Below are positions 37,484 to 50,670 of a DNA stretch of 64,000 nt, in pieces. How positions within the stretch are numbered: the first letter of the stretch is position 1; every line of letters starts with the position of its first letter. The stretch is from NCBI GenBank assembly GCA_030431095.1, contig JAUIJU010000005.1, positions 1-64,000 on the forward strand, read 5' to 3'. Position numbers and translations under genes: made by a program. Source of the stretch: Gammaproteobacteria bacterium (GTDB taxonomy: Bacteria; Pseudomonadota; Gammaproteobacteria; Xanthomonadales; SZUA-36). The notes under the pieces were generated by a model. It was not told the origin of the DNA and made no database searches. It saw only the letters and a list, made by a program, of their open reading frames with translations.

Positions 37484-38956
37484 ATGGCCCACCTTCAACG
37501 CAACCTTGGCCTGACCGGCCTGACGGCCACCGGTATTTGCGCGATGCTCGGCGCCTCGATCAACGTGGTGCCATTCATGGTGCATCGGAGCGTCCCCGGA
37601 ATCGGCGCCTGGGTGTTGCCGGCCTTCGCCTTCGCCGCGCTGCCGGCCCTGCTGGCGGCATTCGCCTACGGTGCACTGGCTTCGGCCATGCCCCGCGCGG
37701 GCGGCAGCTACCTGTACGCCAGTCGTGGACTCAGCCCCTACCTGGGATTTATCGCGAGTTTCTCCCAGTGGTTTGGACTGTCCATCGTCATCGGCGTCAT
37801 CGCTTACGTGATCGTTCCTTTTCTGCGGGATATCGCCGCTGCGCTGGGCTGGCTGGAGACGGCCGCCCTGCTGGAAACCGGCTGGATGCGGGTCGGCGTG
37901 GCCCTGGCCCTGATCTGGGTTTTCGTCGCGGTCAACCTGCGCGGACTGCGGGCCTACGCTCGGACCCTGGTGCCGATGATGCTGCTGATGTTCGCGCTGG
38001 GCGCGATCGTGGTGATCGCCGGATTTGTTTTTGACCACGGGGACTTCGCACGGTCGTTGCAGTTGCGGGAGCAGCGGGTGCTGGCGCCACGGCCACCGGC
38101 CGGTTTCGACCTGGTCACGTTCTGTTCAGCCGCCGCGCTGCTGTTTTCCAGCTTCATCGGTTTCGACGCCATCGCCCAGGCCGGGGGCGAGGCGCGTAAC
38201 CCGTCGCGGTCCCTGCCGCTGGCCATCCTGCTGGCGATCGGCTCGGTGGGCGCGTTTTACTTTTTGTTCGCCGGGGCGGTGTACCACGCGGTGCCGTGGT
38301 GGTTCGTGGCGGAAGCGGCCCTGGCGCGCGACATCACCGCGCCGGGCCTGCTCACCTACCTGTTGCCGGCCGGGCTCGGCGTTGCGATCCTGGCCGGCGC
38401 CGCGATCGCGCTGATCAATGACCTGCCGGCGATGCTGCTGTCGGTGTCACGATTGATGTTCGCCTGGGCCGAGGACGGCATTTTTCCGCCCGGCGTGGCG
38501 CGGGTGCACCCGCGGTTTCACACGCCCCATCGGGCGCTGGGGTTGAGTGGCCTGATCGCCAGCATCGGTGTTCTCGGTAGCCATTTCGCCGGAGATTTTT
38601 TTCTCGGTATCGATATCATGGTCACCGCCATGCTGGTCAACTTCCTGCTCATGTGCCTGACCCTCTTGTGCCTGTCGCGGGTCAATCCGTTGCTGGCGAA
38701 GCGAATGACCCTGTTGCGTCGCGACGGGCCGCGCATGACGGTGGGCGTTGCGGGCGTGATCCTGCTGTCCGGGTTTCTCGTCGTGCACGTGGGCAAGGAC
38801 CTGGCCGTCGAGCGCACCGCCTGGTATTTCCACTCCACCTGGGTGTGGTTGCTGGTCATGGGGCTGGGCTCCACCGTCTACCTGTTGCGGTGGCTGGCGT
38901 TGCGACGTTCCGGCGTCGATCTGCAGCGGCGCTTCCAGAGCCTGCCGGAAGACTGA
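37484..38956 (+). CDS. APC superfamily amino acid permease
   Basis: LGLTGLTATGICAMLGASINVVPFMVHRSVPGIGAWVLPAFAFAALPALLAAFAYGALASAMPRAGGSYLYASRGLSPYLGFIASF. Confidence 0.88.
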   Translation: MAHLQRNLGLTGLTATGICAMLGASINVVPFMVHRSVPGIGAWVLPAFAFAALPALLAAFAYGALASAMPRAGGSYLYASRGLSPYLGFIASFSQWFGLSIVIGVIAYVIVPFLRDIAAALGWLETAALLETGWMRVGVALALIWVFVAVNLRGLRAYARTLVPMMLLMFALGAIVVIAGFVFDHGDFARSLQLREQRVLAPRPPAGFDLVTFCSAAALLFSSFIGFDAIAQAGGEARNPSRSLPLAILLAIGSVGAFYFLFAGAVYHAVPWWFVAEAALARDITAPGLLTYLLPAGLGVAILAGAAIALINDLPAMLLSVSRLMFAWAEDGIFPPGVARVHPRFHTPHRALGLSGLIASIGVLGSHFAGDFFLGIDIMVTAMLVNFLLMCLTLLCLSRVNPLLAKRMTLLRRDGPRMTVGVAGVILLSGFLVVHVGKDLAVERTAWYFHSTWVWLLVMGLGSTVYLLRWLALRRSGVDLQRRFQSLPED

Positions 38957-40428
38957 TGGCCGGGGTTCCTACCACCGAACTGGCGCCGGGCCTGGTCATT
39001 TCACGGGTTCTGAACGGCCTGTGGCAGGTTGCGGACCTGGAGCGGGGCCGAGGTCAGCTGGATCCGCGGCAAGCCGCCGGCGACATGGCGCCCTACGTCG
39101 CGGCCGGATTTACCACGTTTGACATGGCCGATCATTATGGCTCCGCCGAACTGATCGCCGGCGCCTTCCACGCCGCGGGCGGTGACGGGTCGCGGGCGCA
39201 GTTCCTGACCAAGTGGGTGCCCGAGCCGGGCGCCATCGATCGTGCGCATGTGCGGAGTGCGGTGGAGCGCGCGCTCAAGCGTCTGCGCACGGAACGTATC
39301 GACCTGCTCCAGTTTCATGCCTGGCACTATCCCGACCCGTCATGGCTGGATGCCCTGTTCTGGCTCGACGACATGCGACGGGAAGGGCTGCTGGGCGCCC
39401 TGGGCGTCACCAACTTCGACGCGGCGCACCTGCGCATCGCCTGTGCCAGCGGCATCCCCGTGGTGAGCAACCAGGTCAGTCACTCACTGATCGACCAGCG
39501 AGCGTCCGGCCCGTTGTCGGCCGTGTGCGAGCGCTACGGCGTGAAGCTCCTGGCCTATGGCACCCTGGCCGGCGGGTTGCTCTCCGAACGCTGGCTCGGT
39601 CGACCCGAGCCCACGGAACCGACCACCTGGTCACAGATGAAGTACCTGCGCTTCATTCGCGCGGCCGGTGGCTGGGACCGCTTCCAGGCGCTGTTGGACG
39701 TGGCCGCACGTGTGGCCGGTAAGCACGGCGTCAGCGTGCCGGTGATCGCTTCCCGACTGATCCTGGATCAGCCTGCCGTGGCCGGGGTGATTCTCGGCGC
39801 ACGCCTGGGCCATACGGGCCACCTGGCCGAGAACATGGCGATATTCGACACGACGCTGGACGCGGAGGATGTCGCCGCGCTCAGCGACGCAATGCAGTCG
39901 CTCGATCCCATTCCCGGTGACTGTGGCGATGAGTACCGCGCGCCGCCATTCCTGACGGCCTCGGGTGACTTGCGCGATCACCTGGACGCGATTCCACCGG
40001 TGTTCGAGGCGGTCACCGACGATAACGGCCGTCGCCGCGTATTCAGCGGCACACCCTGGGAGGACATGGCCGGCTATTGCCGCGCGGTGCGCCACGGCGA
40101 CCAGATCTCGGTTGCCGGCACCACGGCCACCCACGGTGACCGCGTGATCGGGGGTGACGACCCTGCCGCGCAGACCCACTTCGTGATCGATAAGATCCAG
40201 GCGGCGCTCGAGTCGCTTGGCGGAAGCCTGAACGATGTGACGCGCACGCGCATCTTCGTCAACGACATCGCCGACTGGGAAGCGGTGGCCAGGGCGCACG
40301 GTGAACGTTTCGCCGCGATTCGCCCGGCCAACACGCTGGTCGAGGCACGCCTGGTGGGTCAGGGATACCGGGTGGAGATCGAGGCCGACGCGACGAAGCG
40401 TACGGCACCGGGCGATACCGTGGACTAG
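38956..40428 (+). CDS. Aldo/keto reductase fused to C-terminal RidA/YjgF-like domain
   Basis: AKR: GLWQVADLERGRGQ...FTTFDMADHYGSAELIAGAF...IDLLQFHAWHY...GALGVTNFDAAHL; RidA-like: YCRAVRHGDQISVAGTTATHG...ALESLGGSLNDVTRTRIFVNDIADWEAVARAHGERFAAIRPANTLVEARLVGQGYRVEIEADA. Confidence 0.88.
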   Translation: MAGVPTTELAPGLVISRVLNGLWQVADLERGRGQLDPRQAAGDMAPYVAAGFTTFDMADHYGSAELIAGAFHAAGGDGSRAQFLTKWVPEPGAIDRAHVRSAVERALKRLRTERIDLLQFHAWHYPDPSWLDALFWLDDMRREGLLGALGVTNFDAAHLRIACASGIPVVSNQVSHSLIDQRASGPLSAVCERYGVKLLAYGTLAGGLLSERWLGRPEPTEPTTWSQMKYLRFIRAAGGWDRFQALLDVAARVAGKHGVSVPVIASRLILDQPAVAGVILGARLGHTGHLAENMAIFDTTLDAEDVAALSDAMQSLDPIPGDCGDEYRAPPFLTASGDLRDHLDAIPPVFEAVTDDNGRRRVFSGTPWEDMAGYCRAVRHGDQISVAGTTATHGDRVIGGDDPAAQTHFVIDKIQAALESLGGSLNDVTRTRIFVNDIADWEAVARAHGERFAAIRPANTLVEARLVGQGYRVEIEADATKRTAPGDTVD

Positions 40429-40469: not shown

Positions 40470-41402
40470 ATGTTCCGGCCGCTGCTTAGATACGGCAACC
40501 AGGGCGACGGCGTTCAGCTTTTGCAGCAGGCGCTGAACCTGGCGCCGAGCCAGCAACCGCGCTTGTCCGTCGACGGAATTTTCGGTGGCAAGACCCATGG
40601 CCGCGTGACGGAGTTCCAGGGCCAGAACCAACTGGTCGCCGACGGACTGGTGGGCGACAAGACGCATGCCGCCCTGCAGGCGCTGTACGACGAGGTGGCC
40701 AAACTGGCGCTGCCGACGCCGCCCGGCGAACAGGCCGCCCGCGACAGGATCGTCAACCTGGCCCGAACGGCGGCGCAGGTGCTGGGGTGGCCGGAGTCCG
40801 CGCCGCCGCCGCCCGATCCGACCAGTCAGCGCATCGCCTGTCGCATTGGCCTGGGTGTTCCGGTCAATGCCAAGGGGGACCAGGCGCGCCAGGGCGGCGT
40901 GGCCCTCACCGGCATTTACGCCACGGCAGGTCATCCGGAGGCGGCGAAGAGCCTGACCATATCGGAAGAATCCATCAAGTTTTTCAAGGCCAACCCGAAT
41001 GCGCCGCCAAAACTGAAGAATGCACACCTGGCTGACTGGTGCGGTGTGTTTTGCCTGTATATCTACAAAACCGCGGGGCTGAAGATGTCACCCTGGCCAC
41101 TGAAAATACGGGTCAAGGAACCGGAAATGAAGCCGGTGGTGAGGATCAAGGACATCAGGCCGGGGGACCTGTGCATGGTGTCGCCATTCGGCGGCCGCAA
41201 CCATCATTTTCTGATTGCGGACATCAACGGTTTCGAGATGAAGTCGGTGGACGGAAACGCCGGCATCCATTCGAGCATCATCAAGCGGGGTTACAGTTTT
41301 GCTTCCACCACACCGGATAAGTTCGGCGCATTCCAGGTGAGAACGCCCCAGGGCATCGAGCCCGGTGTGTTTGCATCCCCCATCTGGGAGAAAGTGCTGT
41401 AG
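40470..41402 (+). CDS. Peptidoglycan-binding domain protein with CHAP/NlpC-like Cys-His region
   Basis: PG_binding_1-like RYGNQGDGVQLLQQALNLAPSQQPRLSVDGIFGGKTHGRVTEFQGQNQLVADGLVGDKTHAAL; C-terminal ADWCGVFCLYIYKTAG and GRNHHFLIADINGFEMKSVDGN. No signal peptide seen. Confidence 0.7.
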   Translation: MFRPLLRYGNQGDGVQLLQQALNLAPSQQPRLSVDGIFGGKTHGRVTEFQGQNQLVADGLVGDKTHAALQALYDEVAKLALPTPPGEQAARDRIVNLARTAAQVLGWPESAPPPPDPTSQRIACRIGLGVPVNAKGDQARQGGVALTGIYATAGHPEAAKSLTISEESIKFFKANPNAPPKLKNAHLADWCGVFCLYIYKTAGLKMSPWPLKIRVKEPEMKPVVRIKDIRPGDLCMVSPFGGRNHHFLIADINGFEMKSVDGNAGIHSSIIKRGYSFASTTPDKFGAFQVRTPQGIEPGVFASPIWEKVL

Positions 41403-41526: not shown

Positions 41527-43635
41527 ATGTACGAACCTAATGACGAAGTCGAGCGCTCTCGCCTCGCGCCCGGACGATGCCTGGTGGGCGCGACCTTGCT
41601 GCTGGCGACAATCGCTGTCCCGGCCATGGACATCACGCCGTCCGACCAGAAGCCTGGCAGCCATTCCACCGTGGCCACCTCCGACGGCTCGATTCGGGAC
41701 GACGAGCTGATCGACCACATCTGCGATTCGATCAAGGCCCACGGGGGGCAGGTCAAGGACGTGAAACTGATGGTCAACTCCTGCTACGGCGGCGGTCTGC
41801 TCGATGACATGCAACGCGCTTTCGGGCCGGGTGGCGCCTGCGCGGGAATTCCCTGGGTGGCGGGCACGGCATCGAGCGCGGATGAATCGGCCTGGGGCTG
41901 GAGCGACGACGTCGTGGACGCCAATACACCCAACTTTCAGCTCGGTTCGCACTGGACCAACGCGCTGACGCAACCAGCGGGCGCCAACGCCAACAACATG
42001 CCCGGCGTGCTTCGCGGAGGCAGCGCCAGCAACAACGTCCTTGGTGACATGCAAAGGGCGCGCAACCGTGATTTTCGGGGGCCCAACGGGACGCCTCAGC
42101 GCGAGCATCCACAGGTGGCCTCGGGAAACGGCGGCCACGACATCATGTGGACCATGGCGAACGGCAAACACGAGGCCGTCGTTTTCGGCGGCGCACAGAC
42201 CGACAAACGGCACATCAACAATGTCAACAACATGGAAAGGGTCCTCGAGGAGACCTGGCCGGACGGCACCTACAACATTCAGAAACTGGGTCACACGATG
42301 CCTGGCGCCACCCGGCAGGAGTTGCTCAACGCGATCGACACCGCGGCCTCGCGCCTGGACGCGAACACGCAACTGGTGGTTTACATCGACGATCACGGCG
42401 GGTCCAGCTTTGACCTGGTCGAGGCCGGCGCCGCGATCGCCGACGCGCTGATCGAAGAAGACACCCAGCTGCAGGTCGAGATTCCCCGTTCGTGGCTGAC
42501 CAACTGGTACGGCAACTATTTCGCCAGTCGCTCTGAGTACCCCAGTCCGGGTCTGTGGATGGACGTGACGTTTTGCGAGTACTGCGACTACTGGGACTAT
42601 CGCCTGAGCGGCGAGCCCATGGTTTTCCCCATGGGCAGCAGTGACCCCCTGAAATGGATCCCTTTCGACTTTTACCGGGTTCGTCCCGGCATGAACTACG
42701 TGGAGATTTATCCCTCGTTGCCGCCTTCGAGCGTTGCCGCCGGCACACCGCCGGGCAAGCCGGTCCCGCAGGCGGGAGAGGGCGGGTTGCGTTTTTCCTC
42801 CATGGAGCTGTTCAGTGGCCGGGCCAACGAGTTGCAGAGCGATACCACGCTGCAGCCGGGCCAGAGCGGCGCCTGGTACAACGGCCTGCGTGACGGTGAG
42901 GGGCTGTACGTGGAATTGCTCGATGAACATTCCGCGGTGGTTTACATGTTCACCTATGACCCGGACGGCAACCCGGCCTGGATGCTGGGCGTGGCGAAAC
43001 TGGTTGGAGAAGGATTCGTGATCGAAGAACTGCTCAAACCCGAAGGCGCCACGTTCGGTGACGCGTATGACCCGGCTGATGTCAATTACGTGGATTTCGG
43101 CATGCTGGCCATGCACCTGCCCGACTGCGGCGCGCAGAACCCGGCCAGCCTGTTCATCCTGCCGCCCATGGAACTGGCTGACTGGGCCGTGTTCAATGAC
43201 TTCGGTTACGCGCAGCTGACCTCCATGCTCAACTGCTCGGGCGGCGGCGGCCACGTCAACCACCCGTGGTCCGGCTCATGGTACGACCCGGCGCACAATG
43301 GCGAGGGCATCATCCTCCAGGTCCTGCCCGACGGAACCGTGGTCGCAACCTGGTTCACCTACGACAACAACGGCGAGCAGATGTGGGTGACCGGCTCCGG
43401 CATGCTGAACGGCAATTCCGTGGAGATCGACCAGATGGTCGTGGTGCAGGGGCCCACCTGGGGCCCGGCTTACGACCCGGGCGCACGCTCCGTGTCGAAC
43501 TGGGGCTCGGTCAGGATCAGTTTCGATGGCTGTGGCGCGGCGACCCTGGAATACGACTCCACCCTGGGTTTTGGCTCAGGGCGCTGGGACATGCAGCGCC
43601 TGACGGCGCTGTGGGGCATGGCGTGCACGGAATGA
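41527..43635 (+). CDS. Caspase/legumain-like (clan CD-like) secreted protein with two C-terminal WYDP/WFTYD repeats
   Basis: VKLMVNSCYGGGLLDDM...WVAGTASSADESAWGWSDD; LVVYIDDHGGSS; C-terminal repeats SGAWYNGLRDGEGLYVELLDEHSAVVYMFTYDPDGNPAWMLG and SGSWYDPAHNGEGIILQVLPDGTVVATWFTYDNNGEQMWVTG. Confidence 0.65.
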   Translation: MYEPNDEVERSRLAPGRCLVGATLLLATIAVPAMDITPSDQKPGSHSTVATSDGSIRDDELIDHICDSIKAHGGQVKDVKLMVNSCYGGGLLDDMQRAFGPGGACAGIPWVAGTASSADESAWGWSDDVVDANTPNFQLGSHWTNALTQPAGANANNMPGVLRGGSASNNVLGDMQRARNRDFRGPNGTPQREHPQVASGNGGHDIMWTMANGKHEAVVFGGAQTDKRHINNVNNMERVLEETWPDGTYNIQKLGHTMPGATRQELLNAIDTAASRLDANTQLVVYIDDHGGSSFDLVEAGAAIADALIEEDTQLQVEIPRSWLTNWYGNYFASRSEYPSPGLWMDVTFCEYCDYWDYRLSGEPMVFPMGSSDPLKWIPFDFYRVRPGMNYVEIYPSLPPSSVAAGTPPGKPVPQAGEGGLRFSSMELFSGRANELQSDTTLQPGQSGAWYNGLRDGEGLYVELLDEHSAVVYMFTYDPDGNPAWMLGVAKLVGEGFVIEELLKPEGATFGDAYDPADVNYVDFGMLAMHLPDCGAQNPASLFILPPMELADWAVFNDFGYAQLTSMLNCSGGGGHVNHPWSGSWYDPAHNGEGIILQVLPDGTVVATWFTYDNNGEQMWVTGSGMLNGNSVEIDQMVVVQGPTWGPAYDPGARSVSNWGSVRISFDGCGAATLEYDSTLGFGSGRWDMQRLTALWGMACTE

Positions 43636-47368: not shown

Positions 47369-48655
47369 GTGAGTGAACTGAACCCCTACGACGAGCTGCC
47401 CTACGCGGCGATGCCGATCGCCTGGACGGCGCCGGAGTCGCTGGCGACCACCAGCCTCCTGCATGGCGGACCGCGCATCGATGCCACGCGTTGCCGCGTG
47501 CTGGAACTGGGTTGCGCCAATGGCGCCAACCTGCTGCCCATGGCCTGGTACCGGCCGGGCTGCCACTTTACCGGCGTCGATTATTCCGCGGTGCAGGTAC
47601 GGCAGGCCCACCAGTACCGGGACCAGCTGGGTTTGGAAAATCTCGAGTTCATGCAGGCGGATTTCAAACAGGCTCGCCGCTCACTGGCCGAAAAATACGA
47701 CATCATCATGGCCCATGGCGTGCTGTCCTGGGTGAATGACACGGCCAGGGACGATCTGCTGGCCGCCTGCGAGGAACTCCTGTCGCCCGGCGGGCTGATC
47801 TACCTCAACTACAACGCCCTGCCAGGATGGAAAGTTCGCGGCATGGTGCGGGATTTCCTGATGCAGCAGACCGCGGGCATCGATGACCTGTTGTTGCGCT
47901 CACAGCGGTGCCGCGAGTTGTCCGCGTCAATGGTCGAACCGCTGGGATCGGGGGAACATCCGTACACCCAACTGCTGGAGCGCGAATTCCGCTTGGTCAC
48001 CAACTGTGCGCCGGCCTATATCGCGCACGAGTACCTGTCTCCGGAAAACCGTCCCTACTGGCGCAGCGAATTTTCCCGGCTGGTGGCGGGTTTCGGCCTG
48101 GAGGTGCTGGCTGAGGCGGAGTCCAACGGCCTGGCCGAGCGCATCATCGAGGAACTGAGCGAGTCGCTGCGCGCGCACCCCCTGTTGCAGGACGCGCCGG
48201 GCGACGCGGCTGATCTGTTGTGCTACAGCCAGATGCACTGTCCAGTGCTGGCACGGGCCCCGGTCGAGCGCCGCCCTTGCGACGACGGGGAGTTCGCCGG
48301 CCTCTGGGCCAGCGCCGACGTGCACTGCGTGGCCACGGGGGGTCGGGATATGACGTTTCGACACGCCGACGGGCGGGAGATCCAGACGCAGGATCCACGC
48401 GTCGCCGACCTGTTGCAGCGACTGGCGGCGCGGTGGCCGCACGCCGAACCGCTGTCTGCCTGCATCGAGGACGTGGCGGCCGTTCGCGAAGACCTGGAAA
48501 TGCTTTACCGACAGGAATTGCTGGTGTTGCGATGCGCCGAGCCGATCGCCCGGCCCGCCGACGCGCTGCATCGGCTGGAGCGCGGCCTGTACGGCGCGGT
48601 TACGTCACCCTGGCATACGCTGTCGGAGGCGAAGGCGACGGACCCGCCGGCCTAG
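47369..48655 (+). CDS. SAM-dependent methyltransferase with methyltransferase regulatory-like domain
   Basis: NPYDELPYAAMPIAWTAPESLATTSLLHG...RVLELGCANGANLLPMAWYRPGCHFTGVDYSAVQVRQA; YLNYNALPGWKVRGMVRDFLM. GTG start at 47369. Confidence 0.8.
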   Translation: MSELNPYDELPYAAMPIAWTAPESLATTSLLHGGPRIDATRCRVLELGCANGANLLPMAWYRPGCHFTGVDYSAVQVRQAHQYRDQLGLENLEFMQADFKQARRSLAEKYDIIMAHGVLSWVNDTARDDLLAACEELLSPGGLIYLNYNALPGWKVRGMVRDFLMQQTAGIDDLLLRSQRCRELSASMVEPLGSGEHPYTQLLEREFRLVTNCAPAYIAHEYLSPENRPYWRSEFSRLVAGFGLEVLAEAESNGLAERIIEELSESLRAHPLLQDAPGDAADLLCYSQMHCPVLARAPVERRPCDDGEFAGLWASADVHCVATGGRDMTFRHADGREIQTQDPRVADLLQRLAARWPHAEPLSACIEDVAAVREDLEMLYRQELLVLRCAEPIARPADALHRLERGLYGAVTSPWHTLSEAKATDPPA

Positions 48656-50670
48656 GGGCAGGGCGAGTCCATGAACTCGGTCAGCCGGTCGAGCGACTGG
48701 TTTACGTCAGCGAAGCCGTTGCCGCCGCCGGAAAACCCGGCGAGCCTGGGAGACGAGCAACCGAGGCTGAACAGCAGTGAGCCATTCGCCAGTCGCTCCA
48801 CCAGCGCGGGGTCGAAGGCGACGCCGAAATTGCCGCCCACCGGGCGCAGCATGCCCAGGTCGATGCCATCTTCCAGGTTGGCGCCGGGCAGCTGCGCGAC
48901 CATCCAGGCCGGCGCGCCCTGGTCGTCGTAGGTAAACCAGTAGACCACCACCGTGCCGCCGGGAAGCACCTCCACCACGAAGCCTTCACCGTTGTGCGCC
49001 GGGTCGTACCAGAGGCCATTGCGCCAGTCGCCGGCATTGGCGGGATCATCCATCGCGTAGGGTTGCGTGATGCGTTGCAACTCCATGGCGCCGGATGCGC
49101 CATCGACCAGGTAGTCGGCTTTACCGCTGTCGTCGTCGTAAAAGTTCAGCACCAGGGCGCCCACGGTGCGCACCTCGACGTCGTCGGGGTCGAAGTCCGG
49201 CCCGAAGCGGCCGCCGCGTGTGGCAAGCAGGTCACGTACGACCAGGCGATGCCCTTCCATCTGGCCGACCCCGAAGTACCAGCGCTGTTGCCCCTGGGCG
49301 TCGTAGGTGAACCAGTACACGACCGCGGAATCCGGCCCGTTGGCCTGGATAATGAATCCCTCTCCATCATGGGTGGGGTCGTACCAGGAACCGCTGTGGC
49401 GTGGTCCCATGTCCGCCGGTGCGGGCCGTAGCCACTGTGGAAAGAGATCGTGCACCGGCCAGGCGCCAACGGAATTTCGCGCCTGGGCCATGAACTGATC
49501 GATGCCGGCGGCGTAGTCGGTATTGAAGCTTTCGTCCCGGCGGTTGAACGCCACGGCGTAGTTCCAGCCATCACGAATGCGCACCACGTAGGACGATGTG
49601 CTGGGCAGGCTGCCGGCATGCCAGGTGTTGTATCCGGTGTTGCCGTAGCTGCGCACGGCCCAGCCGCTGCCGTAGTAGTACTCTCCCGTGGTGTAGGGTC
49701 CTTGCCAGTTTTCCGGCAGGCCGAACATTTCGGCCAGCGAGGCGCCATCCAGTGGCGCGTCTTCGGCTTGCGGGTCGTCCAGCAGGGACAGCCAGCGTAC
49801 CGCTTCGATCATGGACAGGGACCAGCCGCCGGCAGCGGCCACATTCTCGTAGTTGAGCGCTCCATACTCCAGCGGCGCAGGCACGAAGGCGTTGCTCATG
49901 ACGGTATTGGCAGTGAACCCGGACTCATACAGCGGGTCCCCGGCAAAGGCCCGGTGCTTCTGGGTCCTCGACAGGCGCGCGTCATAGATGCCCATCGCGT
50001 TGAACACGGTGTCGGCGTAGGCCCCGTAGGGAAGGCCACTGGCGGCTTCCAGCACACGGCCGGCGAGCATGTAGCCATAGTTGGAGTAGGCATAGGTGGT
50101 GCCCGGTTCGAACAACAGGCTGCGGCCGCTCATGAAGCGCTGGATGTCGGGTTTGCGGATCGGCAGGTCGATGTCCAGCGAATCGGCAATGGTGCGGTCA
50201 TGGAACATGGGGTCGAAACCGATGTCCTGCGGCGCACCGAAGCCGGCCAGGTGTTCCAGCAATTGCCGAACGGTGACGCTGCCCAGTCGCGCGTCAGGCA
50301 GCTGGCCGGGGGGCGGTGTGAAGTCGAGAAAGTCCGCCGCCGGCTGCGCGATGGAGAAGTCCGAGTTCTGCTGCAGGTGATGCAGCAGCGTCGAAGTGAT
50401 CGGCTTGCTCACGCTGGCCACGCGAAACCGCGAGCGGTTGTTCACTGGCTGTCCGGAATCGTTGCTGTAGGCGCGGGCCAGAACCAGGCGACCCTGCCAG
50501 GTCATCGCCAGCTGGCCGTCGGGAATGTCGTTGTCCACCATGAACGTCATCATGGCCTGGTCAAAGGCCGCCAGTCCGGGCACTTCCTGCCCATCGGTGA
50601 CTTCGGCGCCCACGGCCCAAACCGGAAGCAGCAACAGGAGCAGTGACAGACGGCGATGCAGTGATTTCAT
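48652..50670 (-). CDS. Class C beta-lactamase-like serine hydrolase with two C-terminal WYDP/WFTYD repeats
   Basis: SxxK in ASVSKPITS, YxN in YAYSNYGYMLAGRVLEAASG; C-terminal SGSWYDPTHDGEGFIIQANGPDSAVVYWFTYDAQGQQRWYFG and NGLWYDPAHNGEGFVVEVLPGGTVVVYWFTYDDQGAPAWMV. Confidence 0.88.
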   Translation of the reverse strand: MKSLHRRLSLLLLLLPVWAVGAEVTDGQEVPGLAAFDQAMMTFMVDNDIPDGQLAMTWQGRLVLARAYSNDSGQPVNNRSRFRVASVSKPITSTLLHHLQQNSDFSIAQPAADFLDFTPPPGQLPDARLGSVTVRQLLEHLAGFGAPQDIGFDPMFHDRTIADSLDIDLPIRKPDIQRFMSGRSLLFEPGTTYAYSNYGYMLAGRVLEAASGLPYGAYADTVFNAMGIYDARLSRTQKHRAFAGDPLYESGFTANTVMSNAFVPAPLEYGALNYENVAAAGGWSLSMIEAVRWLSLLDDPQAEDAPLDGASLAEMFGLPENWQGPYTTGEYYYGSGWAVRSYGNTGYNTWHAGSLPSTSSYVVRIRDGWNYAVAFNRRDESFNTDYAAGIDQFMAQARNSVGAWPVHDLFPQWLRPAPADMGPRHSGSWYDPTHDGEGFIIQANGPDSAVVYWFTYDAQGQQRWYFGVGQMEGHRLVVRDLLATRGGRFGPDFDPDDVEVRTVGALVLNFYDDDSGKADYLVDGASGAMELQRITQPYAMDDPANAGDWRNGLWYDPAHNGEGFVVEVLPGGTVVVYWFTYDDQGAPAWMVAQLPGANLEDGIDLGMLRPVGGNFGVAFDPALVERLANGSLLFSLGCSSPRLAGFSGGGNGFADVNQSLDRLTEFMDSPCP

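Follow-up and report, generated by a model that had tools for sequence, protein, structure and literature searches.

A probable natural circular permutant of the caspase/legumain-type peptidase domain, broken between its catalytic His and Cys

In peptidases of clan CD the catalytic histidine usually comes before the catalytic cysteine. Rearranged caspase relatives have been described, both natural and engineered, and they leave His before Cys. In the Type III metacaspases of algae the p10 domain precedes p20 (PMC5756287), a natural change of module order in which p10 moves ahead of a p20 that is left whole and carries both catalytic residues, with His still first. Engineered circularly permuted caspases such as cpCasp2 stay active (PMC7760212), indicating that the fold tolerates permutation, but these are artificial constructs in which the small subunit was put before the large one and His again precedes Cys. 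The Cys-before-His order that we describe here is real, and the permutation that it very probably reflects differs from both, the domain being broken between the His and Cys blocks themselves rather than ahead of an intact p20. In the published open-access papers searched, no natural permutant with a break at this place is described.

Among families in canonical order, the closest in sequence are peptidase family C13 (legumain, GPI transamidase and bacterial C13-like proteins), the C14B metacaspases and the EACC1-associated caspases. With C13, which gave the best profile alignment among those tried, the protein shares the His-Gly and Cys blocks, a PQ..G end motif as in bacterial members and, in some permuted members, an Arg-His start of helix 1, but its halves are reversed and even after swapping it reaches 21.4 bits against PF01650, below the cut-off of 22.8. 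Metacaspase-4 (PDB 6w8s) is the best sequence match among solved structures, His on His and Cys on Cys, although metacaspases are in canonical order and neither their p10 domain nor their calcium sites are seen in our protein. The EACC1-associated caspases (NF047832) match half by half, with E-values down to 9.5e-5, but in reversed order and with at most 22.7 bits against an NCBIfam cut-off of 140.

The gene lies in the window, that is, the whole stretch of 64,000 nucleotides of gammaproteobacterial DNA that was analysed, and is laid out as follows.

41527 to 43635, plus strand: whole open reading frame, 702 amino acids, with a signal-like N-terminus, a putatively permuted clan CD-type peptidase domain, a beta-rich region and two C-terminal repeats
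41575 to 41631 (approximate), plus strand: signal-peptide-like hydrophobic segment CLVGATLLLATIAVPAMD, read from the sequence without a predictor
41662 to 41760, plus strand: start of the peptidase domain, from His46; hairpin and helix, canonically downstream of the His-Gly loop
41761 to 41793, plus strand: strand (canonical beta4) and loop of the predicted catalytic Cys, VKLMVNSCYGG; the Cys86 codon, 41782-41784, aligns with the canonical Cys
41854 to 42135, plus strand: canonical C-terminal half downstream of the Cys, WVAGTAS...SDD...GSHWTNAL...PQVASGNGG, with the C13-type PQ..G motif at its end
42136 to 42168, plus strand: fusion linker from canonical C-terminus to canonical N-terminus; peak of the rotation scan
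42169 to 42369, plus strand: canonical N-terminal half, with beta1 (HEAVVFGG), the RH that starts helix 1 (42208-42213), beta2 and helix 2
42370 to 42408, plus strand: beta3 and predicted catalytic His loop QLVVYIDDHGGSS; His290 codon 42394-42396, its HG invariant in 20 of 20 aligned members
42409 to 42834, plus strand: beta-rich region downstream of the peptidase domain, modelled with low confidence
42835 to 43632, plus strand: two copies of the GAWYNGLRDGEG / GSWYDPAHNGEG repeat, common to many proteins of the genome

The first-pass annotation had ended the frame at 43400, which is too early: it stays open to the stop at 43635. It had placed Cys86 in VKLMVNSCYGGGLLDDM and His290 in LVVYIDDHGGSS, about 200 residues apart with the Cys block first, and both positions hold, the measured distance being 204 residues. 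The same annotation argued that too little sequence precedes the Cys to hide a canonical His block. The reading frame closes shortly 5' of the first upstream start codon at 41365, so that only about 54-62 extra residues are possible before the ATG, into which a canonical beta1-beta3 block and a signal would not fit.

That a legumain/caspase-type domain has been circularly permuted is well supported at the level of sequence. The clan CD segments beta1-beta2-beta3(His-Gly) and beta4(Cys) are homologous in both halves by profile alignment and HMM matches, yet Cys86 precedes His290, the reverse of the usual chain order. Unmodified members match the C13, C14 and EACC1-caspase models only as out-of-order halves: positions 23-82 of NF047832 fall on residues 191-249 of the relative L011 and positions 110-193 on residues 26-124 of L032; Pfam C14 positions 26-86 fall on the C-terminal part; and in L028 Pfam C13 positions 154-193 fall on the N-terminal part. 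In native order the window protein exceeds no Pfam cut-off and has no C13 match. When the halves are swapped in silico, a C13 match spans the join in the window protein (E=2e-4), in L028 (E=4.4e-4) and in L032 (E=1.4e-3), and L011 rises above the Pfam C14 cut-off. Standard HMMs presume His-then-Cys order and permuted proteins therefore escape them, the matches here being of half length and below threshold.

Comparison of profiles gives the same picture. With 11 canonical gammaproteobacterial C13 proteins as the hhalign reference (E-values are for single comparisons), the native order aligns as two stretches, its columns 19-149 with 106-211 of the reference (E 5.9e-8) and its columns 167-249 with 6-88 (E 1.6e-5), whereas the swapped order yields one match, 16-248 with 6-211 (E 6.7e-13), in which His aligns to His and Cys to Cys; a single match of ~200 columns also results when the native order is compared with two copies of the canonical profile in tandem. 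Searched against the PDB, the swapped profile finds metacaspase-4 in one stretch (E 1.1e-6 and 2.9e-9 in two comparisons), the native profile finds it in two reversed stretches, and the swapped single sequence L014 finds no match. Matches to PDB 'Pizza' entries, which reflect repeats of a DHG-like string, were disregarded. The cut point of the swap had been picked with the hypothesis in mind, but an unguided scan, in which the alignment was rotated in 12-column steps against a null of 40 column-shuffles, lands at the same place: the score has its maximum at the linker (88.6 at column 192, 88.3 at column 204), compared with 57.3 unrotated and a shuffled maximum of 19.4. The peak falls after PQVASGNGG and before KHEAVVFGG, and the canonical PQI..G end motif is kept as PQVASGNGG just upstream of beta1 HEAVVFGG, which locates the fusion there. 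Taken separately, all three sub-lineages gain from rotation (38.7 to 62.4, 49.9 to 83.6 and 31.6 to 39.2), but sub-lineage scores are nearly flat over a span of rotations that includes the linker, so the cut point depends on the full set. After rotation His and Cys are 45 residues apart, against 42-43 in canonical C13. The reversed HMM halves, their contiguity after the swap, the peak at the linker and an order kept across two phyla support the circular permutation that the first-pass annotation had proposed. Affinity to C13 rather than to C14B is less certain than its label 'legumain-like' implies.

The predicted structure is consistent with a rotated caspase fold, whose sheet order is 2-1-3-4-5-6 (PMC4357240). 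AlphaFold2 with seven sequences gave a pTM of 0.59 for a long construct and, for the core, a pTM of 0.78 and a mean pLDDT of 71. The core runs as a hairpin, a helix, the strand to the Cys, a helix, a strand, helices and the HEAVVF strand, followed by a helix, a strand, a helix and the strand to His-Gly. In the model these elements are the caspase set, rotated to beta4(Cys), beta5, beta1, beta2, beta3(His). Foldseek with two models of moderate confidence returned no significant clan CD match, but it aligns in chain order, which makes this null result uninformative about permutation.

The arrangement is shared by 21 relatives, five in the bacterial family of the window and 16 in the Phycisphaerales, giving 22 proteins with the window protein. 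A single-protein query of the named genome collection retrieved no relatives. A search of the order and family of the window yielded the five (3 genomes; 36-56% domain identity among those met first), an alignment query then reached the Phycisphaeraceae protein L020, and successive searches brought the 16 Phycisphaerales proteins, from 14 of 399 genomes of that order; a plasmid search gave no match. The Cys precedes His-Gly in every member that has the Cys, in both of the bacterial phyla represented. Across the 20 aligned sequences (L087 and L089 were judged by eye, outside the alignment) the HG histidine is invariant, the Cys86 position is Cys in 19, and the two lie 156-220 residues apart. 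The exception is L012/L019, one locus in which Pro replaces this Cys, a permuted member that is likely inactive. Homologues lacking Cys86 or His290 had been named beforehand as evidence that would speak against the proposal; this check turned up only L012/L019 for the Cys and no aligned member for the histidine. Remaining alignment matches in a sample of the gammaproteobacterial class are all to the His half only; the readable ones, like most readable planctomycete matches outside the permuted set, belong to ordinary caspase-like proteins in which His stands 39-62 residues ahead of Cys. L012 (1492-2292)/L019 also carries ~245 extra N-terminal residues of LamG-like appearance. Several Phycisphaerales proteins end in PEP-CTERM-like anchors (read by eye), and L081, L089 and L031 have a long extra C-terminal region after the HG motif, around YFSVD.. 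and SxDIWVxDP.

It is conceivable that the order is canonical after all, with His46 (HSTVAT) as the catalytic residue and the later DHGG incidental. The first six relatives all have His46, it stands 40 residues before the Cys, close to the canonical 42-43, and some Phycisphaerales members also have His there, once as THG. Yet only 10 of the 20 aligned members have His here, the others S, R, K, T, N, L or V, beta1-beta2-beta3 is absent upstream of it, and profile alignment puts its segment after the canonical HG loop. Because half of the alignment lacks His46 and every sequence in it keeps the later HG, we rejected His46 as the catalytic His and consider a hidden canonical order very improbable. 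That two short motifs of an unrelated secreted protein resemble those of clan CD by chance would fit the native-order Pfam matches, all of which are below cut-off, but profile scores far exceed the shuffled nulls, separately in three sub-lineages, and the chance of this being so is negligible.

Circular permutants usually arise by duplication followed by loss at both ends. Such a route also fits the origin of two half-domains from a tandem duplication, copy 1 without its His half and copy 2 without its Cys half, which would be completed between chains in a domain-swapped dimer. Against this, the two halves add up to exactly one domain, joined by a short linker, with nothing left over, and the single-chain AlphaFold model is one continuous set of elements, so that we consider the dimer quite improbable. 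A permuted domain that is catalytically dead and used for binding is unlikely too: the Cys is lost in L012/L019 and inactive clan CD homologues have a precedent in the pseudo-orthocaspases (PMC6426788), but Cys and HG persist in 19 and 20 of the 20 members despite high sequence divergence, and the window protein has both. The reading that we prefer is a secreted cysteine peptidase with the caspase/haemoglobinase fold, its catalytic domain being very probably a natural circular permutant.

Sequence analysis shows the order, conservation, homology and cut point of this domain, and from these we infer how its fold might close and what catalysis, specificity, gating and role might follow. In this reading the chain opens with helix 3, beta4 carrying the Cys, beta5 and the PQ..G end, which make up the canonical C-terminal half. 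A short linker then leads to the canonical N-terminal half (beta1, beta2, beta3 and His-Gly), placing the new termini in the loop right after the His-Gly motif, between both catalytic residues. Folding should pair Cys86 with His290 as in canonical enzymes, and the protein is most likely a secreted Cys/His-dyad peptidase that would cleave peptide bonds in the usual way. An Arg-His pair opens helix 1 at residues 228-229 in the window protein and in some relatives and is absent in others. The S1 pocket residues Arg44/His45 of legumain are also on helix 1 (PMC4357240), and this analogy weakly suggests Asn or Asp at P1, as in legumain, for members with the pair, the suggestion being weak because several members are without it. 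The mature N-terminus of such a permutant would sit next to the active site, so that activity may be gated by removal of the signal peptide or by trimming of the N-terminus. L012/L019, in which about 245 residues precede the domain, is an exception to gating by signal-peptide removal, which we offer as a hypothesis. The biological role would probably be extracellular protein processing.

If the family is active, caspase-type catalysis would tolerate a chain break in the very centre of the active site, the engineered permuted caspases would have a natural counterpart, and there would be a case for rotated-profile searches of other clan CD families. In the tree, 16 of the 20 permuted members cluster, with weak support, and L032-L034 and L080 lie elsewhere with poor support; a single origin of the permutation is not rejected (p-AU 0.074). 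L029, from the Phycisphaerales, clusters with the gammaproteobacterial members (98/96), a placement that hints at gene transfer between phyla. It is tempting to propose, at somewhat less than even chances, a whole natural clan CD family that starts between the catalytic His and Cys, is perhaps of single origin, has spread between Phycisphaerales and Gammaproteobacteria, and is activated in step with export as the mature N-terminus adjoins the active site.

Among neighbour genes at seven loci none is conserved beyond the gene itself and overlapping frames. PADLOC gave weak single-member matches only, including 'caspase' at 0.0026 in one member, with no pointer to a defence system. A peptidoglycan-binding-domain protein is encoded upstream of the permuted-protease gene, and an open reading frame at 38653-40428 looks, by eye, like a fusion of an aldo/keto reductase with a RidA-like part at its C-terminus. 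Residues ~436-700 of the window protein are the two repeat copies. This GSWYDPxHxGEG...WFTYDxxGxQMW repeat (42835-43632) has sub-threshold Pfam matches only (CBM_56, MORN) and occurs at 27 places in genome G000. The same C-terminal repeats are carried by the product of 48652-50670 on the minus strand, a secreted serine hydrolase of the beta-lactamase fold (PF00144, E 4.4e-35).
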